NCBI GenBank assembly: GCA_902772905.1
Contig: CACYCL010000137.1
Span: 1-37,633, forward strand
From: an uncultured bacterium
GTDB lineage: Bacteria > Verrucomicrobiota > Kiritimatiellia > RFP12 > UBA1067
Length of the DNA: 37,633 bases
Direction of reading: 5' to 3'
Translations under genes and position numbers: made by a program
Notes under the pieces: generated by a model
Databases searched by the model: none
What the model saw: the letters and a program-made list of their open reading frames with translations, nothing else
What the model was told of the DNA's origin: nothing
Part shown: one piece after another, positions 6,598-32,342 of the stretch
Layout of the letters: the number at the start of each line of letters is the position of its first letter
Position numbering within the stretch: position 1 is the first letter of the stretch

Positions 6598-6648
6598 GCC
6601 TACAGTGACGAAATGGCTTTGTGCACGGGCAAGAAAGAGATGGATTTC

Positions 6649-7671
6649 ATGGCGATGATGCGTACGGTCATACTGGCGGCGGGGGACTTCCCGCGGAAAG
6701 GTGGCGAGCCGTACAGGCTCCTTGCCTCGGCGCGTTTCGTTGTTGCCTGCGACAGCGCGGCGGACGCATACCGCCGTGAGTTCGGTCGCTGGCCCGATGC
6801 AATCGTGGGCGACTTAGATAGCGTATCCATCGCCGCGCATGGTCGTGCCGTGCGCATTTCGGATCAGTCCACGAACGACCTCTCCAAGGCGATTGCGTGG
6901 TGTCATGGGCATGATTGTGGCGATCTGGTGATTCTTGGCGCTACGGGGAAGCGCGAGGACCACACGATCGGCAATGTGTTTCGCGCCCTGGATGCTGGTG
7001 TTCGAGTGGTCACTGAGTTTGGCGAATTCCTTCCTGTGCGTGGTACTCTCAAGTTTAGAACGTGGAAAGGCGCGGGCGTGTCTGTATTTGTGATGGATCC
7101 GCTTGCGAAGATGTCGTCGCGTGGGCTCAAGTGGAAGCTTGATGGTGTGCGCTTCGCAAACGCTTGGTGCGCAACGCTGAACCGTGCGTCGTCAGAAAAT
7201 GTCGCTGTCACCAGTGACCGCGCCGCTTTTGTTTACGTAGAGCGAAATCCAAATGCCACGCGCGCCGCTGTGTCGCTAGGATCAAATCTCGGCAACCGCG
7301 CGGCGAACCTGAAAATGGCGCTTGCGGCGCTTTCGCGCCTTCCGCAGACGCGTATCCTTGATGCAAGCTCTGTAGTCGAAACCAATCCGGTTGGAGTTCC
7401 GTGCGAATTCGCCTCGCTGAAGTTTCTCAATCAGGCGGCTCTGTTTGAGACGGAATTAGATGCTTGGGAGTTCTCGCGGGCCATGCATGGCATCGAGGAC
7501 AGGATGGGGCGTGTTCGCACCGTTCGCAACGGCCCTCGCGTGATAGATATTGATCTAATCGACTTTGGAGGACGGAAGATGAAGACGAGCGAGTTGACGT
7601 TGCCGCACCCGAGAGCGGCGAGACGCGATTTCGTAATGCGTCCGTTGCGTGAACTGGGGGTGGAGCTTTGA
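6649..7671 (+). CDS. Bifunctional thiamine pyrophosphokinase / HPPK fusion
   Basis: Two complete cytoplasmic pyrophosphokinases are joined in one 340-residue chain. Residues 1 to about 195 are thiamine pyrophosphokinase (thiamine to thiamine diphosphate): CDSAAD (34-39), GDLDS (54-58), DQSTND (72-77) and 'GATGKREDHTIGN' are its metal-, ATP- and thiamine-site motifs. Residues about 204-340 are 6-hydroxymethyl-7,8-dihydropterin pyrophosphokinase (FolK, folate pathway): 'AVSLGSNLGNRAANL', 'ETNPVG' and 'RNGPRVIDIDLI' with the catalytic Asp pair at 300/302. Both enzymes move the beta-gamma pyrophosphate of ATP to an alcohol. I chose the ATG at 6649, 8 nt after AAAGAGA; in-frame ATGs at 6613, 6640, 6655 and 6658 are alternatives. 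The stop overlaps the murI start. Confidence 0.9.
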   Translation: MAMMRTVILAAGDFPRKGGEPYRLLASARFVVACDSAADAYRREFGRWPDAIVGDLDSVSIAAHGRAVRISDQSTNDLSKAIAWCHGHDCGDLVILGATGKREDHTIGNVFRALDAGVRVVTEFGEFLPVRGTLKFRTWKGAGVSVFVMDPLAKMSSRGLKWKLDGVRFANAWCATLNRASSENVAVTSDRAAFVYVERNPNATRAAVSLGSNLGNRAANLKMALAALSRLPQTRILDASSVVETNPVGVPCEFASLKFLNQAALFETELDAWEFSRAMHGIEDRMGRVRTVRNGPRVIDIDLIDFGGRKMKTSELTLPHPRAARRDFVMRPLRELGVEL

Positions 7672-15536: not shown

Positions 15537-17459
15537 ATGAGAAACATGAAATGCTTCACATTAGCCATTATCGGCGCCTTAGCGCTTGTATCGGCGTCGT
15601 CTTATTCGTCGTTTGCCGACGGCGACCCTCGCTGGTTTGTTGGTGCGCGTTCGGTGCATGTGTGGCATCAGGAAGCGTCTGGCGAATGGATATATGGCGA
15701 AGCCTCCATAGAAAAGTCAGTGCCAGGCAGTTATTTCTGCGCCATCGGCTTTAACTGCGGCTATTTCGGAATCCAGGAGCTCCTCGACGGACGCAAGGTC
15801 GCCATATTCTCCGTGTGGGACCCGGGAGATCCGTTCAACTTCGCCATCAAGGCCGACAGCGTTGATGAGAGTATCCGCACGAAGAACCTGTATGCAGGAG
15901 AGGGCGTCAAGATAGATCGCTTCGGCGGCGAGGGCACGGGCGGCAAGTCCATGATGCCTCTAGACTGGCAGTATGGCGAGACGTGCCGCTTTGCGGTGCA
16001 CGCTCGTCGTGATGGCGAACATCGTGTCGCGTACACCGGCTACCTATGGCGCAACGGCGGCTGGTTCAAGATGGCCACGTTCAGCACCTTGCAGTCGAAG
16101 GGCAACCCCGAGATGAGCGGCATTTACAGCTTCGTGGAAGACTTCCGGCGCACTCCGGAATCGCGTCAGCAGGTTCGCAGCGCGGTGTTCAAGAACTTCT
16201 TCGTCAAGCGTCCTGGCGGCGATTGGACGGCGCTTGCCGACGGGAAGTTCACTGCCGACAAGAATTCGGCTACGACGATTGACGCCGAGGTTGTCGAAAA
16301 CGGCTTCAAGCTGACCACGGGCGGCAATACCGAGAACATGCACTTCAGGGTAAACGACATGATGAAGACAACCGTCGGCTCTTGCACGGCTGAATGCAGA
16401 GCGCTCGAAATGATGCCGACGGAGCCGGATGTGCTTTTCGCAAGCGGTGACGAGGTGGAAGGCGTTAAGTCGGCGGTATACCGCATCCCGGCGATGTGCA
16501 CGGCGCCAAACGGCGATGTCGTGCTGGCATGCGACGCCCGTCTCGAAGGCGGCGGCGATCTCAACCACGCCAAGCCGATCAACATTGCGGTGCGTCGTTC
16601 ATCTGATGGCGGCAAAACGTGGAGTGCGCCTGTGTTCGCATGGAGGTGGAAGTGGACGGACAGCGAGCACTGGGCAGGATCCGATCCTTCCCTCGTGGTT
16701 GACGCCGAGGCAAAGAAGATTTTCCTTTTCTGCAATGTGTGGGAGAGCGTTAAGGGAGCCGGCGTCTACCGCTTCTTTGTGCAGGAGTCTTCAGACAACG
16801 GCAGAAGCTGGTCTGATCCACGCGAGATCACAAACGACATCGCCGTGCCCGGGTGGGGTTTCGGGCGCCACCAGAACGACGGAGGGTTCATCTTCATATC
16901 CTCCGGTTCGGGAATACAGACGAGGGACGGTACGCTTCTTCACACGCTTGTGCACGTGAACGACGGCAATGCGCTTTTCGGGTCTGCCGACCACGGCAAG
17001 ACATGGCGTGTGTTCGGCAACCCTGTCAAGAACGGCGACGAGTGCAAGGTAGTTGAGCTTTCCGACGGTTCGTGGATGATCAACTCGCGTTGGCGCGGCG
17101 GCGGTCGCCAGATACATGTCAGCAGGGATCGCGGCGCGACTTGGGAATCGCGCTATGATGAATCGCTCGCCGATCCGCAGTGCAACGCTCAGGTCATGCG
17201 CGTTGGCAAGGTGCTCCTGTTTTCCAACTGCAAGAGTCCGAACCGCCGCCATAACCTCTTTGTGCGAGCTTCTCTTGACGACGGAAAGACATGGAACGAA
17301 GGAATCTCGATATGTCCGTTCGGTGCGGCGTATTCCGATATGTGCGTATTGCCGGGCAAACGCCTTGGCGTAGTCTACGAAGGCGCAGGGTACGCCACTA
17401 TTAATTTTGTGTCGCTTCCGCTTAAGAGCATAGTCGTCGACATGGTCGGCAGACAGTAG
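15537..17459 (+). CDS. Secreted DUF3472-sialidase (GH33-like) fusion
   Basis: The enzyme probably releases terminal sialic acids from host glycoconjugates outside the cytoplasm. The 640-residue protein has a signal peptide (about 1-27, ending SFADG). Residues about 30-290 match the DUF3472 pattern ('GYFGIQELLDGRKVAIFSVWD'), a domain possibly binding carbohydrate. Residues about 300-640 are a six-bladed sialidase: the RIP motif with R316 and five Asp boxes, SSDGGKTW (355), SSDNGRSW (418), SADHGKTW (483), SRDRGATW (529) and SLDDGKTW (579). The end has 'VVYEGAG' with Y614/E615, fitting the catalytic Tyr-Glu region. AGGAG sits 8 nt before the ATG. The gene is single and is followed at once by the cysS promoter. 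Confidence 0.9.
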   Translation: MRNMKCFTLAIIGALALVSASSYSSFADGDPRWFVGARSVHVWHQEASGEWIYGEASIEKSVPGSYFCAIGFNCGYFGIQELLDGRKVAIFSVWDPGDPFNFAIKADSVDESIRTKNLYAGEGVKIDRFGGEGTGGKSMMPLDWQYGETCRFAVHARRDGEHRVAYTGYLWRNGGWFKMATFSTLQSKGNPEMSGIYSFVEDFRRTPESRQQVRSAVFKNFFVKRPGGDWTALADGKFTADKNSATTIDAEVVENGFKLTTGGNTENMHFRVNDMMKTTVGSCTAECRALEMMPTEPDVLFASGDEVEGVKSAVYRIPAMCTAPNGDVVLACDARLEGGGDLNHAKPINIAVRRSSDGGKTWSAPVFAWRWKWTDSEHWAGSDPSLVVDAEAKKIFLFCNVWESVKGAGVYRFFVQESSDNGRSWSDPREITNDIAVPGWGFGRHQNDGGFIFISSGSGIQTRDGTLLHTLVHVNDGNALFGSADHGKTWRVFGNPVKNGDECKVVELSDGSWMINSRWRGGGRQIHVSRDRGATWESRYDESLADPQCNAQVMRVGKVLLFSNCKSPNRRHNLFVRASLDDGKTWNEGISICPFGAAYSDMCVLPGKRLGVVYEGAGYATINFVSLPLKSIVVDMVGRQ

Positions 17460-18895: not shown

Positions 18896-20587
18896 ATGAA
18901 AGTAAGGAAGGCAATTGTTCTTGCAGCGGGGCACGGAACGCGACTCAGGCCGTTCACATGTGTGACGCCCAAGCCGCTGATGCCGGTTTGGGGTGAGCCC
19001 ATGCTTGGGCGCGTGGTCGCCATGCTACGCGAATGGGGTGTCGACGACATCGCGTTCAACACGCACTGCCTGCACGAGCAGGTCAAGGCGTGGGCTGACG
19101 GTTACCGACGCAGCGCTACGGCGGCTGGGGACAAGGTGAAGATAAGGGTCAGCTACGAACCTGAGATACTTGGCACAGGCGGCGTGCTCAATCCGTTGCG
19201 CGAATGGATAGGCAACGAACCGTTCTTCCTTGTAAACGGAGACATCGTAGTTGAGAATGCGCCCAATCCGATTGACAAGGTTCGCGACTTTGACAGCCCA
19301 GGCATCATCGGCTGCGGATTGGTGTCGGAGTCGGGGCCGCGTACAATAGAAGTCGAGCCTGAGACTGGCTTCGTCACCAACTGGCGCAGCCAGGATGCTG
19401 GGTGGGACGGTACATATACCTACTGCGGCATAGCGGTGCTCAAGCCGGATATACTGAAGTTTGTGAGGGATGAAGGGTATTCGTCCATTGTCTCGGCATA
19501 CGAGGATGCTATGATGCATGGCGAATTCGTCAAGGCCGTGAAAAGCAGCGAGATGCTCTGGACTGATGCTGGGACAATTCCCTCCTACATCGATCTCAAC
19601 CGAGATGGCGACGACAACGCCTTTTCTGACTTTCCTCAGGTAAAAGCCGCAATTGAGGCTGTTGGAGCCGGGGAGCGTGTAGAGTTTCTCTGCGCGCGCG
19701 GCAGCGAGCGAGTGTTCTTCCGCTGTGACAAGGGCGTCATTATCCTGTATGACGACGGCAATCGTGACGAGAACGGGTTGTATGCCGGTCATGCTCGCTT
19801 CCTGAAGGAGAGGGGCATTTGCGTGCCTGACGTCCTCGCTGATCTGCCTGCTATCAAGACGGTTGTCCTGTCTGATGTCGGAACTGAGAAGAAAATGTCG
19901 CTGGAGGACTACGTCAAGGTCGTTGAGGCTCTAGTCCGTTTCAATTCGCTTGGCGACGATCCGGGAATCGACGGCATAAACCTGTTGCCTTGCTTTGACG
20001 GCGAGACGTGGGCTTGGGAGCGCGACTTGTTCAAGAAGTTCTGCCTTGGCGCACGTTTCGGGCGCGGCATGCCAGATGCGGTGGAACGCGAACTTGAAGC
20101 CGTTGCGGCAGTTATGGAGCGCGAACCCAAGGCGCTCGTCCACAGAGACCTCCAGTCGACCAACGTGCTGTGGAAAGACGGTGTGCCGTCTTTCATAGAT
20201 TTTCAGGGTATGCGACTAGGACCGGCAGCATACGATCTGGCGTCGCTCGTCTACGATCCGTACGTGACGTTTACCGAGGGCGAGAGGCGAGCGCTTGTGG
20301 CTCTCTACGCCAAGAAATGCGGGCGGCCTGAGATCGAGAAGGTGTTGCCGTTCGCGGCAGTGCAGCGGTTGGTCCAATGTCTTGGTGCGTATGGACGCCT
20401 TGCGTCCGTTGGTCAGCCTCAGTTTGGACATCATTCGCTTCCCGCGCTGCAGAATTTGCTAGATGCGGCTGACAGTGCGGGACTGGACGCGGTTGGCGCA
20501 CTTGCAGAGGATCTGATTGCCGAGGAGCAGCGGCGGCAGAAACCGTCAGGACACGTGCACTGTTCATGCGGTCACCATCACCACTGA
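18896..20587 (+). CDS. Fused sugar-1-phosphate nucleotidyltransferase and APH-fold kinase, MurU-AmgK-like
   Basis: The 563-residue cytoplasmic protein joins two activities that are separate proteins in Pseudomonas cell-wall recycling. Residues 1 to about 240 are a nucleotidyltransferase with 'AIVLAAGHGTRLRPFT', 'PKPLMPVWGEPM', 'EILGTGGVL' and 'FFLVNGDIVVE'. Residues about 265-545 are an aminoglycoside-phosphotransferase-fold kinase: HRDLQSTN has catalytic D418 and N423, and 'FIDFQGMRLGPAAYDLASL' has metal-binding D435 and matches the AmgK pattern. The likely job is ATP-dependent anomeric phosphorylation of MurNAc (or GlcNAc), then UDP transfer. The domain order is transferase first, kinase last. 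Other sugars are possible. The tail, residues 551-563, is rich in His and Cys (GHVHCSCGHHHH). The start is set by the leaderless promoter. Confidence 0.83.
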   Translation: MKVRKAIVLAAGHGTRLRPFTCVTPKPLMPVWGEPMLGRVVAMLREWGVDDIAFNTHCLHEQVKAWADGYRRSATAAGDKVKIRVSYEPEILGTGGVLNPLREWIGNEPFFLVNGDIVVENAPNPIDKVRDFDSPGIIGCGLVSESGPRTIEVEPETGFVTNWRSQDAGWDGTYTYCGIAVLKPDILKFVRDEGYSSIVSAYEDAMMHGEFVKAVKSSEMLWTDAGTIPSYIDLNRDGDDNAFSDFPQVKAAIEAVGAGERVEFLCARGSERVFFRCDKGVIILYDDGNRDENGLYAGHARFLKERGICVPDVLADLPAIKTVVLSDVGTEKKMSLEDYVKVVEALVRFNSLGDDPGIDGINLLPCFDGETWAWERDLFKKFCLGARFGRGMPDAVERELEAVAAVMEREPKALVHRDLQSTNVLWKDGVPSFIDFQGMRLGPAAYDLASLVYDPYVTFTEGERRALVALYAKKCGRPEIEKVLPFAAVQRLVQCLGAYGRLASVGQPQFGHHSLPALQNLLDAADSAGLDAVGALAEDLIAEEQRRQKPSGHVHCSCGHHHH

Positions 20588-20594
20588 GGGTCTG

Positions 20595-22697
20595 ATGGCG
20601 GCGATACGCGATGTCCTTAGAACGATAAAGACGTCTGGCAGGCGTCTGCCAGACTCTGTGTCGGCGCGATTCATGGGCAAAGAGCGCACGTTCGACGCGT
20701 ATAGCCTTGGAGGGGACACATTCATATTCGAACGTGGTGTCGCAAGCCGACTTGACGACAGGCCAAGTGTCCTCATCGTGTCTAAAAACGAGCTTTCCCG
20801 CAAGGCCAGAGGGCAGGTCATGACGTTGACGACAGGCAATCACGCGGTTGCTGCGATGCCTCTTCTGGATGGCAGGTTTTGGGGACTGTCGACGCTTCCC
20901 GCAGATCGTCGCAGCTCCGTTATGACTAGGGCGGTGCTGTGCGCGAATGTCGTAAGCGAGAAGATCGAGCTTTCCCAGAGAGAAGTGCCGACGGCTACGT
21001 TGGTCAAGCTGGATTCATGGCTTACGGAAAACGTCGGCTTGGGGCTTGATGGCGTCGTCATGGGCGAGCGGAACGAGACGACGCTTGAGCATTTTCGTAG
21101 ATTGGGTCAGGAGTGGCGCGTTAAACCGCTAGCATGGACAGAGACGGAGATGCGCGTTGCCCTGGATGCAGCACGCAAGCGCATCGGTACTCGTATTTCG
21201 TATTTCCACTCTGCGCGTGGCGTTCATTTCATAACCTTGCCTGAGTTCCGGCGCTTTGCCGCTTTTGCCGAGACGGAGCCTCAGTCGTTCGTAGATGGAC
21301 TTGCCGAACTTGTCGGCGTTTACGAGGGAAACACGACTTCATTTGTGCGCCAGCCGAAGTACCGTGGCCACCATGAGGTGGAGTTTTTCGGGCTGCGTCG
21401 CGGCACGGCAATGGAAAGGCTGGTTCCAGAGATTGAGTCTCTGCATACGGCGGTTTGCGAAGGACGCATCGGGCAGCTCGGTGTCATTCAACGCGCGCAG
21501 GAGCTGTCCGCGCTGTATTCGTCGCTTCTTGCACGTCCGGAGCTTGCTGACGAGTCGTCCCAGATTTTCGCTGAAACGCTGTACATGAACATAACGGGTG
21601 AGGTCTATGCCGTTGTTGGCGAAGGCTCGACCCCAGCGTTCGACGACAGGCGCACGGCTCTTCCGGGGGCAACGTTTGTCAATGGCCGCGCCGTCATGCA
21701 CCCCGGTTTCGACGAACGCACGGAATTGCTTCTCTCCAATCTGCGCGGCATGATGTCGAAAGACGAGGTGGTTGAGTATGCCAACGTATACGAGATACGT
21801 GGCGCCGATGCCGATGTACCGCTTGGCAGGGGAGCGACTCGCGAGGTGGTATACAAGACGAGTATGCGCCCGATAACGTACGCACTTGTCGAAAAGAGGC
21901 TGTCCAGTTCGTCGCGTGGCTATGCGAGCTACATGCTTGCGCGAATAGGAGCGCTGCGTTCTCTTGGAGTAGCGTTAAGCGACTACTACTGTCTTCTCAA
22001 GCGCAGACCTGGCACCGGACGCGGCAAACACGACTACTACATACGCCGTAGATGCGAGGGAGAGCCGATGGATGCCATCCCCGCCGACTATTTCAGGAGC
22101 GCCGACGGCTCGGCCGTTGAGGAGAAGGAAGTCGTTCTGCTTCTTGCCGGGCTGATGGGAGACGCCGCGGCGCAGAACATGGCGATGAAGAAGTTCGACC
22201 CGACGACGGAAAGCCCGCTCTTTGGCGTTGGCAAGGAGATATACGACTTCGAATATGACCTTGTGCGTGAGTTCGTGGTTCCGAAGAGGGTGTCAACATG
22301 CTCAATACGCGGTAGTTTCGGCTGGCCGTGTCTCGACTACACCGACGCCAACCTCGACGCGATAGCGAACTTCTACTTCGGCCACTTCGCCCACGCGGTG
22401 AAGGCGTACGCGGCTAGGCATCAGTCGGTGTCAATGGCCGATGTGGCCGAGAGGTTCATGGGCGGTTTCGAGTTCCGCACGCATGCAATGGCGTGGCAGC
22501 TCGCAGTGATGCGAGACGCTTTCGAGGCGTTCGACCCCCCAGTGCCGTCATGCTATTCCTTTCGCGCAAAATGGCTTTTCGCCATGTGGTCGCTTGAACG
22601 CCAGGAGCGTCGCCTCGGCGCGTTCAGGCGCATATTCCTCACCAAGGTGAGACTTGTCGAATCCGAACGCCATGAGAATGGCGGAGGTGATGCGTGA
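20595..22697 (+). CDS. Unrecognised 700-residue protein with protein-kinase-like motifs
   Basis: I do not recognise a named family. No signal peptide or membrane segment is seen, so it is probably cytoplasmic. In the C-terminal half the order of motifs resembles a protein-kinase-like fold: a glycine loop 'LGRGATREVVYK' (G411, G413, candidate ATP-site K421), a helix 'SSRGYASYMLARIGALRSLG', a hinge-like 'YYIRRRCEGEPMDAI', then 'GDAAAQNMAM' (D523, N528) and 'EIYDFEYD' (D551 in place of DFG). The N-terminal 400 residues are mixed alpha/beta without clear motifs. Function as a kinase is inference. The ATG at 20595 has GAGGG 5 nt upstream and follows the previous stop by 7 nt; the frame runs farther upstream but inside the preceding gene. 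It lies between the MurU-AmgK fusion and the AddA-like gene. Confidence 0.75.
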   Translation: MAAIRDVLRTIKTSGRRLPDSVSARFMGKERTFDAYSLGGDTFIFERGVASRLDDRPSVLIVSKNELSRKARGQVMTLTTGNHAVAAMPLLDGRFWGLSTLPADRRSSVMTRAVLCANVVSEKIELSQREVPTATLVKLDSWLTENVGLGLDGVVMGERNETTLEHFRRLGQEWRVKPLAWTETEMRVALDAARKRIGTRISYFHSARGVHFITLPEFRRFAAFAETEPQSFVDGLAELVGVYEGNTTSFVRQPKYRGHHEVEFFGLRRGTAMERLVPEIESLHTAVCEGRIGQLGVIQRAQELSALYSSLLARPELADESSQIFAETLYMNITGEVYAVVGEGSTPAFDDRRTALPGATFVNGRAVMHPGFDERTELLLSNLRGMMSKDEVVEYANVYEIRGADADVPLGRGATREVVYKTSMRPITYALVEKRLSSSSRGYASYMLARIGALRSLGVALSDYYCLLKRRPGTGRGKHDYYIRRRCEGEPMDAIPADYFRSADGSAVEEKEVVLLLAGLMGDAAAQNMAMKKFDPTTESPLFGVGKEIYDFEYDLVREFVVPKRVSTCSIRGSFGWPCLDYTDANLDAIANFYFGHFAHAVKAYAARHQSVSMADVAERFMGGFEFRTHAMAWQLAVMRDAFEAFDPPVPSCYSFRAKWLFAMWSLERQERRLGAFRRIFLTKVRLVESERHENGGGDA

Positions 22698-22722
22698 TGG
22701 TGCCTGACGGGCAGAGGCATGT

Positions 22723-25641
22723 GTGCGGCAAATGAAGAACTGTCGGCTAATCGAGGCTTCCGCTGGAACTGGCAAGACGCAGGCGCTTGGCAACAGGCTT
22801 GTCGAGCTTCTGCGTTGCGGCGTCAAGCCGCATGAAATTGTGGCTCTTACGTTCTCGCGCGCAGCAGCTGGCGAGATATTCGAGCGGTTCGTTTCGCTTT
22901 TGGCGAATGGCGCCTCGACGGACCATGGCGACGCCCAGATGCTGCGTTCGGTGCTTTCAACACAGCACCTCTCGCAGATCGGCACTCTCGACAGCTTTCT
23001 CATGCGCATGGTCCGGGCTTTCCCACTTGAGCTTGGACTTGTCGGAGACATTGAGATGATGGACGACTACGAGGCGGCGTCCTCGCGCTCGGAGGTGTCA
23101 TTTTCAATACTTCGCCGAACAGACCCGGCGATCAAGAAGTCGTTCTCTGCGGCTTTCTCCCTGGCGATGAATCGTGCCGACGTGCGCAGCTTTGCGGAGT
23201 CATATCGGCAGTTTGTGTCGCTCTGGCACGAACGTGTGACGGCGCTGCCATCTAAATCGGCATGGGGCGACCCTGTCGCCATCTGGGGACGCGACCCCGC
23301 TTTTGCGCATGTCTCGGAACGTGAACTTGCGTATGCCGCTGACGCACTGGATGGAATGTTCGATGGCAGGCCATGGGCTGAACTCGTGACGTGGATCCGC
23401 GAATTCAGAGGTAGTTTTGGTGTGCCAAAGGGCATAATCAAGAAGCTTCTTGACGACGAAAGCGTGTTCAAGGGCGATGCAATAGAATTTACCTACAGCC
23501 GCAGGAAGTATTCGCTGTCGCGTGGGCAGACGCTCCGCGTGAGGGATGCCCTAATCTGCGTGTATGGCTACGTCGTGAGGATGAAGCTTGAGCTCGCACG
23601 TGGCGTTTATGGGCTCATTGCCGCTTTCGAAAAGGCTTATGACATAAAGGTGCGCCGGGCAGGCAGGCTTGTCTTCGCCGATGTGCCGCGGCTTGTCGCG
23701 TCTCTGCCGGAAGATCGGCGCATGGCGCTTGAGTACAGAATGGACTCCCGCATCAGCGCATGGGCGCTGGACGAGTTCCAGGACACTAGCCGAGAGCAAT
23801 GGAAAGCGCTCAAAAACCTTCTCGACGAGGCAAAGCAGCCCGGCAGCGGGAAATCCGTATTCGTCGTGGGCGATTGCAAGCAGGCAATCTACGGCTGGCG
23901 CAACGGAGACGTACGCATCTTTTCCGGCGAACGCGACAGCGGACGTTACGACCTCGGCGAGCTGCGGAAGACGTATCGCTCTGGCCCTGCCATTGTTGAT
24001 GCCGTGAACCGTGTGTTCGAGCGAGGGCGCATAAATTCTGAGTTTCCGGTCTGGAAGTGCCCTGAGCACGAGACGGCAAAACCGGACATTGCCGGATTCG
24101 TGCGCGTTGAAGAATCCCCGGGGCGCAAGATGAACGACTTTGTCGAGCCGGTGCTAGTCGCTCTGAAGGCTGCCGTCGGCGAGAAGGCGTCCGATCCGCG
24201 TAGACGTACACTGAGCGCCGCTGTGCTTGTGCGTTCGAACAAATTTGGCGCACTGCTTGCGAGGGCTCTAAGGGCGCATGGGCTGGAGGGGGTCGTCTGG
24301 GAAGGCGAAAGCGCGATGCTCGACACGCCTGCGCTGTCGGGGTTCCTGGACCTTGTTCAGCTCGCCGACCATCCTGGAGACGCGCTTGCATATCGCCATT
24401 TTGCCCTTACTCCGCTAGCTGCGGCAATGTACCATGACGCCATTCCCAGTGCATCGGAGATATCGCGCGAGATGTCTATCGCGTTCACGACGCGTGGGAT
24501 TGTGCGTACTTTTCGTGCCTTGCGCGCGCTTCTGCCCGAGGATCCGAATGTCGCATGGAGCCATTTCACCGAGGAACGCTTCACCGACATGCTGCGTACG
24601 GCGGCCGAGTTCGAGCTTGGAATGTCCCCAGGTACGCGTCTTGCCGATTTTGCGTCGTTTCTTGCCGCCAAGAAGAAGCGCACCGTTGCCGAGGATGGCA
24701 AGATCAAGATAATGACCATCCATCGCTCCAAGGGCTTGGGCTTTGACTATGTCGTGCTGCCGCTCTACGAGAAGGATTCGCTTTGCGCCAGCCCGAACGG
24801 GCCGCTGGTCGGCGATTCGTGGATACTCCCAGATCCAGGCGCCCGCGTTGCGGACGCCGTGGGCGGTCTTGAAGAGGCCTGCGCACTGCGTCGCAATCGT
24901 GCCGAGCAGGAGGCGCTGTGCACGTACTATGTCGCGATGACGCGCGCAAAGCGGGCTATGACGATTGTGCTGCATCCACAAGGCGAGTCTCTCAGGTTCT
25001 CCGATCTTGTGCGCAGCGCCGAGCTTGGCAATCTCGCGCATCCTGAAGTGCAGCTTGTCGCAGAGGAGCTGAGTGGCAACGTCGCCAAGAAGTCACCGCC
25101 GGCAAAGTACAAGCGCGGTCCGCGAATCACCGTGCGCCGCAGGCTTCCTTCCCAGGGATTCCGCGAGGGCATGAGCGCAGGAGAGCTTTTCGTGCGCGGC
25201 GCTGGGAGGTCTGCGGCTTTGGCGCGAGGCGTTGAGGCGCATGCCTACTATGAGAAGATCGAGTGGATTGATGCCGCATCCGCCAAGAACGACTTTGAAC
25301 GCGCTTTTGTCAGGCCTGATGGCTTTGTCTCGCTTTGGAGGGAGCGGGCTTTCGAGGTATTCGCCGATGGAGCGTGGACTTCAGGGCGCTTCGACCGCGT
25401 GGTGTTCTTCCGAGATGCTGGCGGACTGTCTGCTGTAGTGCTGGACTTCAAGACGAACCGTCCGACGAGAGGCGAGAGCGAAGGCTCGTTCGCGGTTAGG
25501 ATGCGTGCGGAATATGCCGGGCAAATGCGGGCGTATTGCGCTGCGGTTGCGGCGCTTTCCGGCATCCCGCGCGAGCGGATTGCGGCGCGGCTTTGCCTTT
25601 CCGAGACCGGTACGGTATGCGATGTGATTCCGTTCGGATAA
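22723..25641 (+). CDS. addA: AddA/RecB-like UvrD-family helicase-nuclease
   Basis: The protein probably unwinds and trims double-strand DNA ends for recombination. It has 972 residues, shorter than Gram-positive AddA (about 1200). Superfamily 1 helicase motifs are present: Walker A 'ASAGTGKT' (12-19), Walker B 'DEFQDT' (350-355), 'VVGDCKQAIYGWR', 'RKTYRSGPAIV', 'IMTIHRSKGLGFDYVVLP' (about H667) and 'YVAMTRAKRAM'. A RecB-type nuclease domain closes it: 'ARGVEAHAYYEKIEW', 'LDFKTNR' (D908, K910) and QMRAY (934-938). No AddB/RecC partner is adjacent. The start is a GTG at 22723 with AGAGG 5 nt upstream; the ATG at 22732 is the alternative. It follows the kinase-like gene by 25 nt. Confidence 0.88.
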   Translation: MRQMKNCRLIEASAGTGKTQALGNRLVELLRCGVKPHEIVALTFSRAAAGEIFERFVSLLANGASTDHGDAQMLRSVLSTQHLSQIGTLDSFLMRMVRAFPLELGLVGDIEMMDDYEAASSRSEVSFSILRRTDPAIKKSFSAAFSLAMNRADVRSFAESYRQFVSLWHERVTALPSKSAWGDPVAIWGRDPAFAHVSERELAYAADALDGMFDGRPWAELVTWIREFRGSFGVPKGIIKKLLDDESVFKGDAIEFTYSRRKYSLSRGQTLRVRDALICVYGYVVRMKLELARGVYGLIAAFEKAYDIKVRRAGRLVFADVPRLVASLPEDRRMALEYRMDSRISAWALDEFQDTSREQWKALKNLLDEAKQPGSGKSVFVVGDCKQAIYGWRNGDVRIFSGERDSGRYDLGELRKTYRSGPAIVDAVNRVFERGRINSEFPVWKCPEHETAKPDIAGFVRVEESPGRKMNDFVEPVLVALKAAVGEKASDPRRRTLSAAVLVRSNKFGALLARALRAHGLEGVVWEGESAMLDTPALSGFLDLVQLADHPGDALAYRHFALTPLAAAMYHDAIPSASEISREMSIAFTTRGIVRTFRALRALLPEDPNVAWSHFTEERFTDMLRTAAEFELGMSPGTRLADFASFLAAKKKRTVAEDGKIKIMTIHRSKGLGFDYVVLPLYEKDSLCASPNGPLVGDSWILPDPGARVADAVGGLEEACALRRNRAEQEALCTYYVAMTRAKRAMTIVLHPQGESLRFSDLVRSAELGNLAHPEVQLVAEELSGNVAKKSPPAKYKRGPRITVRRRLPSQGFREGMSAGELFVRGAGRSAALARGVEAHAYYEKIEWIDAASAKNDFERAFVRPDGFVSLWRERAFEVFADGAWTSGRFDRVVFFRDAGGLSAVVLDFKTNRPTRGESEGSFAVRMRAEYAGQMRAYCAAVAALSGIPRERIAARLCLSETGTVCDVIPFG

Positions 25642-30656: not shown

Positions 30657-32342
30657 ATGAAAGAGCAATCGAGAAAAATAGTCCTGGCGGGTGCTGTCGC
30701 CTGTCTTGCGTCCATGACGGCGTTCTGCGCGCCGATGAAGTTCTGCGTCCTGCAGCCGCCATTTGCGCTTGATCCGGCGAATGTCGGCGCAAGCATCCAA
30801 TGGGAGCTTGACGCCCTTGCTAAGTGCGACGAGAGCCTTGACGTGATCGTTCTTCCTGAGGGAAGCGACCGTCAGGGCAAGGCCGCCTCGCGTGAACAGG
30901 CCATAGCCACTGCAAAGGACATTGGCGCGAATGTGATCGCCGCCTGCGCGGAGACCGCGAAGCGGTGCAACGCCGTCGTGTTCGTGAACGCCTACGACTT
31001 CTCGCACGGCGAAAACCCGCGCAACACGACGTTCGCCTTCGACCGTTCGGGCGCGCTCGTCGGCAAGTACGACAAGCGGCATCTTACGATGGGCGAGTGG
31101 AAGCGCTGGCACTACGACTCCAGCTACATGTGGGAATGGAGCGCGCCGGAGGTGATGACGATAGACGGAGTGAAGTACGCCTTCCTCACCTGCTACGACT
31201 TCTACTACTACGAGGCTCTGGCCAACATAGCGCGGTACAAGCCCGACGTGATCATTGGCTGCTCGCACCAGCGCAGCGATTCTCATTTGGCCCTGGACTT
31301 CTTCGGGCGCTTCATCGCATACAACACGGGCGCGTATCTTGTGCGTTCGTCTGTCAGCATGGGCAAGGATTCGCCTGTAGGCGGCGGCTCGATGATCGTT
31401 GCGCCTTCCGGCGAGATGCTGGGCGACCTCAAGAGCCGCGTCGGAACGCTCACGGTCGAGTTCGACCCGCACGAGAAGTTCCTAAAGCCGAAGGGCTACG
31501 GCGGAGCGATAGGGCTTCACTCCGACTACGTAGATATCGGCAGGCGCCCGTGGCAGTACCGTCCCGCCGGAAGCGCAATAGTGCCTGGCTTCGAGAACGC
31601 GCCCGCGAAGCGGCTCTGTGCGCACCGTGGCTTCTCGACGATTGCGCCAGAGAACAGCCTCGCCGCGTTTGGTTCCGCTGTCGCGCTGGGCGCATCGGAG
31701 ATAGAATTCGATCTTTGGTGGACGAAGGACGGCGAGATTGTGTCCATACACGATTCGACCCTGAACCGGGTCTCCGACGGAAATGGGCGTGTGTTCGACC
31801 ATACGTACGAAGAGCTTCTCAAGCTTGACTTCGGCATCAAGACGGGGCCGCACTTCAAGGGCATGAAGATACTCAAGTTCGAGGACATTCTGAGGAAGCT
31901 TTCGAGCCATGTCATAATGAACATCCACATCAAGGACATTGGCAAGGCGTGGGACGAGGCGCTCGCCAAGAAGGTCGTCAGCCTCATCGACGCCTACGAT
32001 GCGCGGCGGCACGTCTACTTCATGACGTCGAACGGCGAAATCCAGGACCAGTTCGCGCGGCTTGCGCCGGACATCCCACGCTGCATGGGCAATGGCGGGC
32101 AGGACAACAAGAGCCATCCCGACATCGTGGATCATGCGCTGAAGCACAAGTGCCAGATGGTTCAGCTCTTCAAGCCGTACTTCGACCAGTCTCTCATAGA
32201 CCGCGCACACGCCGCCGGGCTGCGCGTCAATGTGTTCTGGTCGGACGATCCGGAAGAGGCTAAGAAGTTCCTGGAGATGGGTGTTGACACCATACTGACG
32301 AACGACTACCAGCCGATCGCCGCCGCAACCGGCTTGAAGTAG
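30657..32342 (+). CDS. Secreted nitrilase-superfamily / glycerophosphodiester phosphodiesterase fusion
   Basis: The 561-residue protein has a signal peptide (about 1-25, ending TAFCAP) and two enzyme domains. Residues about 27-300 are a carbon-nitrogen hydrolase with its Glu-Lys-Cys triad: E68 in 'VLPEGS', K140 in 'GKYDKRHL' and C179 in 'LTCYDFYYYE'. Residues about 318-561 are a GDPD-type TIM barrel: 'CAHRGFSTIAPENSLAAF' (H323, R324), E350/D352 in 'EIEFDLWW', H365 in 'SIHDSTLNRVSDGNG' and the closing 'GVDTILTNDYQP'. One chain could cleave an amide and a phosphodiester of the same lipid or wall-polymer substrate; this is inference. The ATG at 30657 is set by the leaderless promoter. The gene stands alone between - strand lipoproteins and serS. 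Confidence 0.9.
   Translation: MKEQSRKIVLAGAVACLASMTAFCAPMKFCVLQPPFALDPANVGASIQWELDALAKCDESLDVIVLPEGSDRQGKAASREQAIATAKDIGANVIAACAETAKRCNAVVFVNAYDFSHGENPRNTTFAFDRSGALVGKYDKRHLTMGEWKRWHYDSSYMWEWSAPEVMTIDGVKYAFLTCYDFYYYEALANIARYKPDVIIGCSHQRSDSHLALDFFGRFIAYNTGAYLVRSSVSMGKDSPVGGGSMIVAPSGEMLGDLKSRVGTLTVEFDPHEKFLKPKGYGGAIGLHSDYVDIGRRPWQYRPAGSAIVPGFENAPAKRLCAHRGFSTIAPENSLAAFGSAVALGASEIEFDLWWTKDGEIVSIHDSTLNRVSDGNGRVFDHTYEELLKLDFGIKTGPHFKGMKILKFEDILRKLSSHVIMNIHIKDIGKAWDEALAKKVVSLIDAYDARRHVYFMTSNGEIQDQFARLAPDIPRCMGNGGQDNKSHPDIVDHALKHKCQMVQLFKPYFDQSLIDRAHAAGLRVNVFWSDDPEEAKKFLEMGVDTILTNDYQPIAAATGLK

Follow-up and report, generated by a model that had tools for sequence, protein, structure and literature searches.

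The window (the whole stretch of 37,633 nucleotides that was analysed) is part of the core chromosome of a Kiritimatiellae bacterium, with genes for NusA, IF-2, CysRS and SerRS, and the closest named relatives of this bacterium are rumen and gut MAGs. A gene encoding a 700-residue protein, referred to here as F1, is located between the genes for an NTP_transferase-APH fusion and a RecB/AddA-like helicase-nuclease (Table 1), the two neighbours already named in the first-pass annotation. The fusion is described as MurU/AmgK-like, an assignment for which the scores are under both curated cut-offs. F1 and the upstream gene look co-transcribed, since a GAGGG sequence precedes the ATG of F1 just where the upstream gene ends. 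When the F1 sequence was inspected by eye, no signal peptide or membrane segment was evident.

Table 1 Features of the F1 locus (positions in the window; residue numbers are those of F1 unless F2 is named)
Feature	Position	Strand	Basis
Fusion of NTP_transferase and APH (MurU/AmgK-like), upstream neighbour; 7 nt lie between its end and the start codon of F1	18896..20587	+	Profile matches
Shine-Dalgarno-like GAGGG, overlaps the end of the upstream gene	20586..20590	+	Sequence; ATG at 20595
F1 gene, 700 aa, predicted kinase fold	20595..22697	+	ORF, homologues, pLDDT 91
F1 N-terminal part, residues 1-384	20595..21746	+	Homologous to F2 N-terminus from residue ~79
F1 kinase-fold domain (predicted), residues 385-692	21747..22670	+	Predicted structure; structural matches begin at ~351
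beta2 segment R416-E417-x-x-x-K421	21840..21857	+	R416 and E417 invariant; K421 in 109/113
K434, end of beta3 (VAIK-lysine position)	21894..21896	+	Model; 113/113
R484-x-R486, end of beta5/hinge	22044..22052	+	Model; both invariant
GDAAAQN (522-528)	22158..22178	+	Modelled within helix 511-531; D523 not conserved
E548 (F2 E522)	22236..22238	+	Sole carboxylate of 511-580 invariant in F1 and F2
C569-S570-I-R572-G-S-F-G-W577, after beta8, expected place of DFG	22299..22325	+	C569, S570, R572 and W577 invariant
RecB/AddA-like helicase-nuclease, downstream of F1	22723..25641	+	Profile matches

When F1 was searched against Pfam, NCBIfam, PHROGs and PADLOC, no matches were obtained, and a sequence search of the PDB returned nothing significant. 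No F1 relative was found in the plasmids, phages and viral contigs searched. Full-length F1 was observed in 53 of the 58 related genomes (35-70 % identity); a fragment in one more genome (G028) and a match to the paralogue only in another (G047) bring those with any match to the F1 query to 55. Within one gut-bacterial order (Kiritimatiellae), F1 occurs in the majority of the genomes sampled, and outside this order only the paralogue, F2, was found. F2 (~655 aa) is spread over several families of the class and one genome of another class, and the genome from which the window comes encodes it as well (contig C127, L111:3762-5696).

When the two proteins were compared using hhalign, homology was observed over both halves (probability 99.8, 533 columns; 98.6 for the N-terminal parts), with ~20 % identity between the paralogues. 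Besides this full-length homology, a GxAAAxN helix and a GKE/GDE motif are shared in the motif alignment. One family of the order (f2) has F2 and lacks F1, and in two others (f4 and f6) F1 is seen and F2 is not. Judged from this distribution, a duplication of F2 followed by losses would be the simplest reading of this pattern. One or two stop codons were seen inside the F1 match in L008 and L009 and at the F1 places of G007, G017 and G023, which are probably due to an assembly error or mark where a somewhat shorter protein naturally ends. At another locus (L036; G037:C173) the F1 frame is open for 1167 further codons upstream, or 1876 codons in total, and this may be a fusion or a mere open frame in high-GC DNA.

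AlphaFold models were obtained for F1 (pLDDT 91, pTM 0.85; 77-sequence alignment) and F2 (pLDDT 88; 28 sequences). The N-lobe of the F1 model consists of beta1 (393-401), beta2 (415-422), beta3 (429-435), alphaC (443-457), beta4 (465-467) and beta5 (481-485), and the C-lobe contains a helix (511-531), beta7 (548-555), beta8 (560-568) and helices afterwards. This kinase-type order (beta1-beta2-beta3-alphaC-beta4-beta5, C-lobe helix, beta7-beta8) is predicted in both models.

When the models were compared with the PDB using Foldseek, kinase-fold proteins were listed with E-values of only ~1e-3 to 1e-4. With VIA-align, kinase-fold proteins were found throughout the best 50 rows for F1 and F2 alike. 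Bud32, the KEOPS kinase (4ww7 and 4ww9, with Cgi121), was the top single match of both models (Z 9.3 for F1 and 9.8 for F2), VPS34 and PI3K-delta gave Z up to 9.2 (F1) and up to 9.6 (F2), and WaaP, AmiN and PI4KII-alpha were among the F1 matches listed at Z ~7. Families such as FAM20 and LanM, although absent among the structural matches listed, may still be similar. The F1 listings were taken up by matches to the C-terminal domain. In a second library (viral predicted structures), the best 50 matches of F1 were mostly annotated protein kinases, together with one PI3K/PI4K domain protein.

The PI3K/VPS34 catalytic domain (PF00454) resembles F1 in that the best structural matches (~351-691, Z 8-9.6) include elements before the N-lobe, but F1 has neither the conserved DRHxxN nor DFG, and the aligned parts share 5-9 % identity. 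No match to PI3_PI4_kinase above the cut-off was found in F1 or elsewhere in its genome (G000). Bud32 carries HGD and DFG motifs. F1, in contrast, has neither of these, contains a ~350-residue N-terminal part and shows no sequence link to Bud32. The pseudokinase AMPylase SelO (PF02696) shares with F1 a kinase fold (predicted for F1), a non-canonical catalytic loop and the character of a conserved stand-alone bacterial protein (PMC10870513), but the profile comparison gave 0.1-0.3 %, and no match to the family was found in F1 or in the window's genome. HipA_C, CotH and APH/WaaP likewise have a kinase fold, whereas hhalign comparison of F1 with the profiles of HipA, SelO, CotH and APH, including the neighbouring APH domain, yielded 0.1-0.6 % and no link. 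F1 does not match the HipA_C (PF07804; hhalign 0.6 %) or CotH (PF08757) family models, and the sole HipA_C match of the genome lies on another contig.

As sequence profiles reach no kinase family, the kinase-fold claim rests on predicted structure. The first-pass annotation had suggested a fold search and a profile-profile search as checks; kinases were reached only by the former, with matches over ~351-691 and N and C lobes in the predicted order. Since scores that are individually moderate agree between two divergent paralogues and, in the case of F1, between two libraries, we consider it very probable that the modelled C-terminal region has a kinase fold. The support is consistent and not overwhelming, as the best matches have Z 9-10 with an rmsd of 4-5 Å and the Foldseek E-values are those given above.

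Conservation was counted in 113 distinct homologues. The fully invariant residues of the F1 domain are R416, E417, K434, Y443, R450, R484, R486, K532, E548, C569, S570, R572 and W577. The beta3 lysine expected of the kinase-like (PKL) superfamily is present as K434 (strand 429-435). In F2 this position is probably occupied by the invariant R391: the match of the F2 model to 5t2l starts at residue 387, equivalent to PI3K-delta 775, so that R391 falls on K779, which we take to be the beta3 lysine, if the match is ungapped there. No conserved Glu was found in helix 443-457 as an alpha-C Glu, and this helix has the invariant Y443 and R450 and a near-invariant Y446. Neither the catalytic Asp nor the metal Asn of an HRD/DRHxxN loop was recognised in F1 when the 113 homologues and the model were inspected. 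In residues 511-580 no Asp is invariant among these homologues (D555, 105/113). At the place of the DFG-type Asp, beta8 is followed by C-S-x-R-G, a register inferred from strand order; spacing comparison with PI3K, PKA and Bud32 gave contradictory hints on the register of the F1 C-lobe and was left out of account.

A series of kinase motifs had been read from the F1 sequence in the first-pass annotation, and the strings concerned are indeed present (LGRGATREVVYK at 410-421, YYIRRRCEGEPM at 481-492, GDAAAQN at 522-528 and YDFEYD at 550-555). As evidence for a kinase the series is weak, a loose G.G-K-D....N-D pattern being found in 185 of 2000 composition-preserving shuffles (9 %). Among the four residues predicted to be conserved, K421 (109/113) and N528 (105/113) are so, but D523 (86/113; replaced by S, N, R, G or L) and D551 (Asp in 5/113; Glu in 76 and Arg in 18) are not. 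K421 lies in beta2, the beta3 lysine being K434, and D551, in the YDFEYD that had been read as subdomain VII, has the low count given above. GDAAAQN had been taken as the catalytic loop (subdomain VIb). It lies within a modelled helix, its F2 counterpart, GxAAAxN, also sits inside one (485-505), and its invariant alanines would be more in keeping with helix packing than with a loop for catalysis. The broader proposal of a new kinase-like branch fared better, as the models of two paralogues match kinase-fold proteins and neither Pfam nor NCBIfam contains the family.

Of 106 distinct loci, 78 have the NTP_transferase-APH gene directly upstream of F1 and on its strand; the median gap is -7 nt, counted up to where the F1 profile match begins. 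This linkage, which the first-pass annotation had put forward for checking together with one to addA, is conserved, but the pairing is not obligatory, since in families f3, f4 and f6 the partner gene is either missing or located at another place. Genomes of f4 carry F1 without NTP_transferase-APH, and NTP_transferase-APH is found without F1 in f2 and some other families. Linkage to addA was rejected as a family feature, because direct adjacency occurs in the window genome alone among more than 100 loci compared. Downstream of F1, Hsp33 was found in 28 of 106 loci. The window's genus has a KdsB-like gene there, and other lineages have a DppB-like permease (both recognised from the sequence by eye). 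As these neighbours are lineage-dependent, they were not used for function. F1 and F2 have a downstream neighbour in common, though not in the same lineages, as one DppB-like ABC permease begins at the F2 stop codon in some genomes and at that of F1 in others (L111:5693-6640 (+) and L221:5900-6817 (+); also L228 and L224).

The NTP_transferase-APH protein of the window has a His/Cys-rich C-terminal tail, SGHVHCSCGHHHH, with longer repeats of the tail in L101, which suggests that it may bind metal. Alphaproteobacteria have an amgK-murU-addB-addA gene cluster, and the order of the MurU/AmgK-like, F1 and AddA-like genes (window 18896-25641) recalls it, with F1 in the place of addB.

Our best explanation, to which we assign a probability of roughly 60 %, is that F1 is a new, order-specific PKL family with a degenerate or alternative site, paralogous to the more widespread F2. 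Starting from the observed F1/F2 homology, conservation and gene order and from the predicted fold, we infer a two-part protein. Its C-terminal ~310 residues would adopt the PKL fold, with PI3K-type lipid kinases and Bud32 as the closest in shape, and its first half would bring a partner or substrate. A nucleotide or phosphorylated ligand may be held between the lobes by K434 (beta3) and E548, in a site with an Arg/Lys-rich rim putatively formed by R416, R484, R486, K532 and R572. As no HRD, alpha-C Glu or DFG is recognisable, regulation or changed chemistry is suggested, and F1 may be a regulator of the pseudokinase type or else an atypical phospho- or nucleotidyl-transferase. It would most likely belong to the pathway in which the neighbouring NTP_transferase-APH acts (activated sugar or envelope precursor).

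These two modes of action are about equally probable. That F1 is a true pseudokinase, a non-catalytic scaffold or allosteric partner, perhaps of NTP_transferase-APH or of F2, falls a little short of an even chance. It is consistent with the lack of an invariant Asp in residues 511-580 and with the C-S-x-R-G found in nearly all sequences at the DFG place. F2 retains more acids, namely D518 (28/28), E522 and an acid at 539 (D in 23, E in 5), whereas in the order-specific paralogue F1 the counterparts of D518 and 539 are G544 (101/113) and S570. However, the invariance of K434, E548 and many Arg and Lys residues in 113 sequences is stricter than a pure scaffold would lead one to expect, and pseudokinases with a kinase fold, such as SelO and SidJ, can be enzymes (PMC10870513). 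Nearly as probable is that F1 is an atypical transferase that puts the kinase fold to other chemistry, with an Arg/Lys-rich site for AMPylation or the transfer of phosphate or nucleotides, which would account for the invariant R416, K434, R484, R486, K532 and R572, has a SelO-like precedent (PMC10870513) and agrees with a nucleotidyltransferase as the neighbour gene; but SelO is not linked by sequence, and the metal-binding Asn/Asp pair is not recognisable in F1.

It seems unlikely that F1 and F2 are two new Kiritimatiellae families of kinase-fold enzymes with a re-invented site and a novel phosphate or nucleotide transfer in activated-sugar metabolism; the site of F1 would then be K434/E548 with the Arg-rich rim, without HRD or DFG. 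More doubtful still is a superficial likeness to kinases, in which case F1 would be an enzyme of two domains, unrelated to kinases, with the active site in its N-terminal half. That half is about equally conserved (R159, W174, R175, H211, E238 and E263 are invariant) and has no recognised fold, and the sequence profiles give no kinase link, but two paralogues of ~20 % identity, modelled from separate alignments, found kinase-fold matches throughout the lists, F1 in two libraries. A role of F1 as an AddAB or DNA-repair component, in place of the addB of some other bacteria, is hardly credible, as its position directly between the MurU/AmgK-like and AddA-like genes is peculiar to the window genome and F1 has no helicase or nuclease match and a kinase-like predicted fold.

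No description of the F1 family was found in the papers searched. With the families listed by KINtaro lying outside the comparison, F1 is best read, from its model, as a new family, non-canonical in its site, of a superfamily already known. A gene conserved across an order and outside recognised families usually represents a housekeeping function yet to be learned. If the fold is right, the kinase-like superfamily gains two families that the sequence searches used here could not reach, and F1, with the more degenerate site, and F2, with more acids kept, would form a natural pair for studying how kinase-fold chemistry is lost or changed.

Three further fusions were observed in the window. One protein combines thiamin pyrophosphokinase and HPPK, the folate pathway pyrophosphokinase (6613-7671), another carries a BNR/sialidase-like domain fused to DUF3472 (15537-17459), and in the third a glycerophosphodiester phosphodiesterase domain is fused to a carbon-nitrogen hydrolase (30657-32342).
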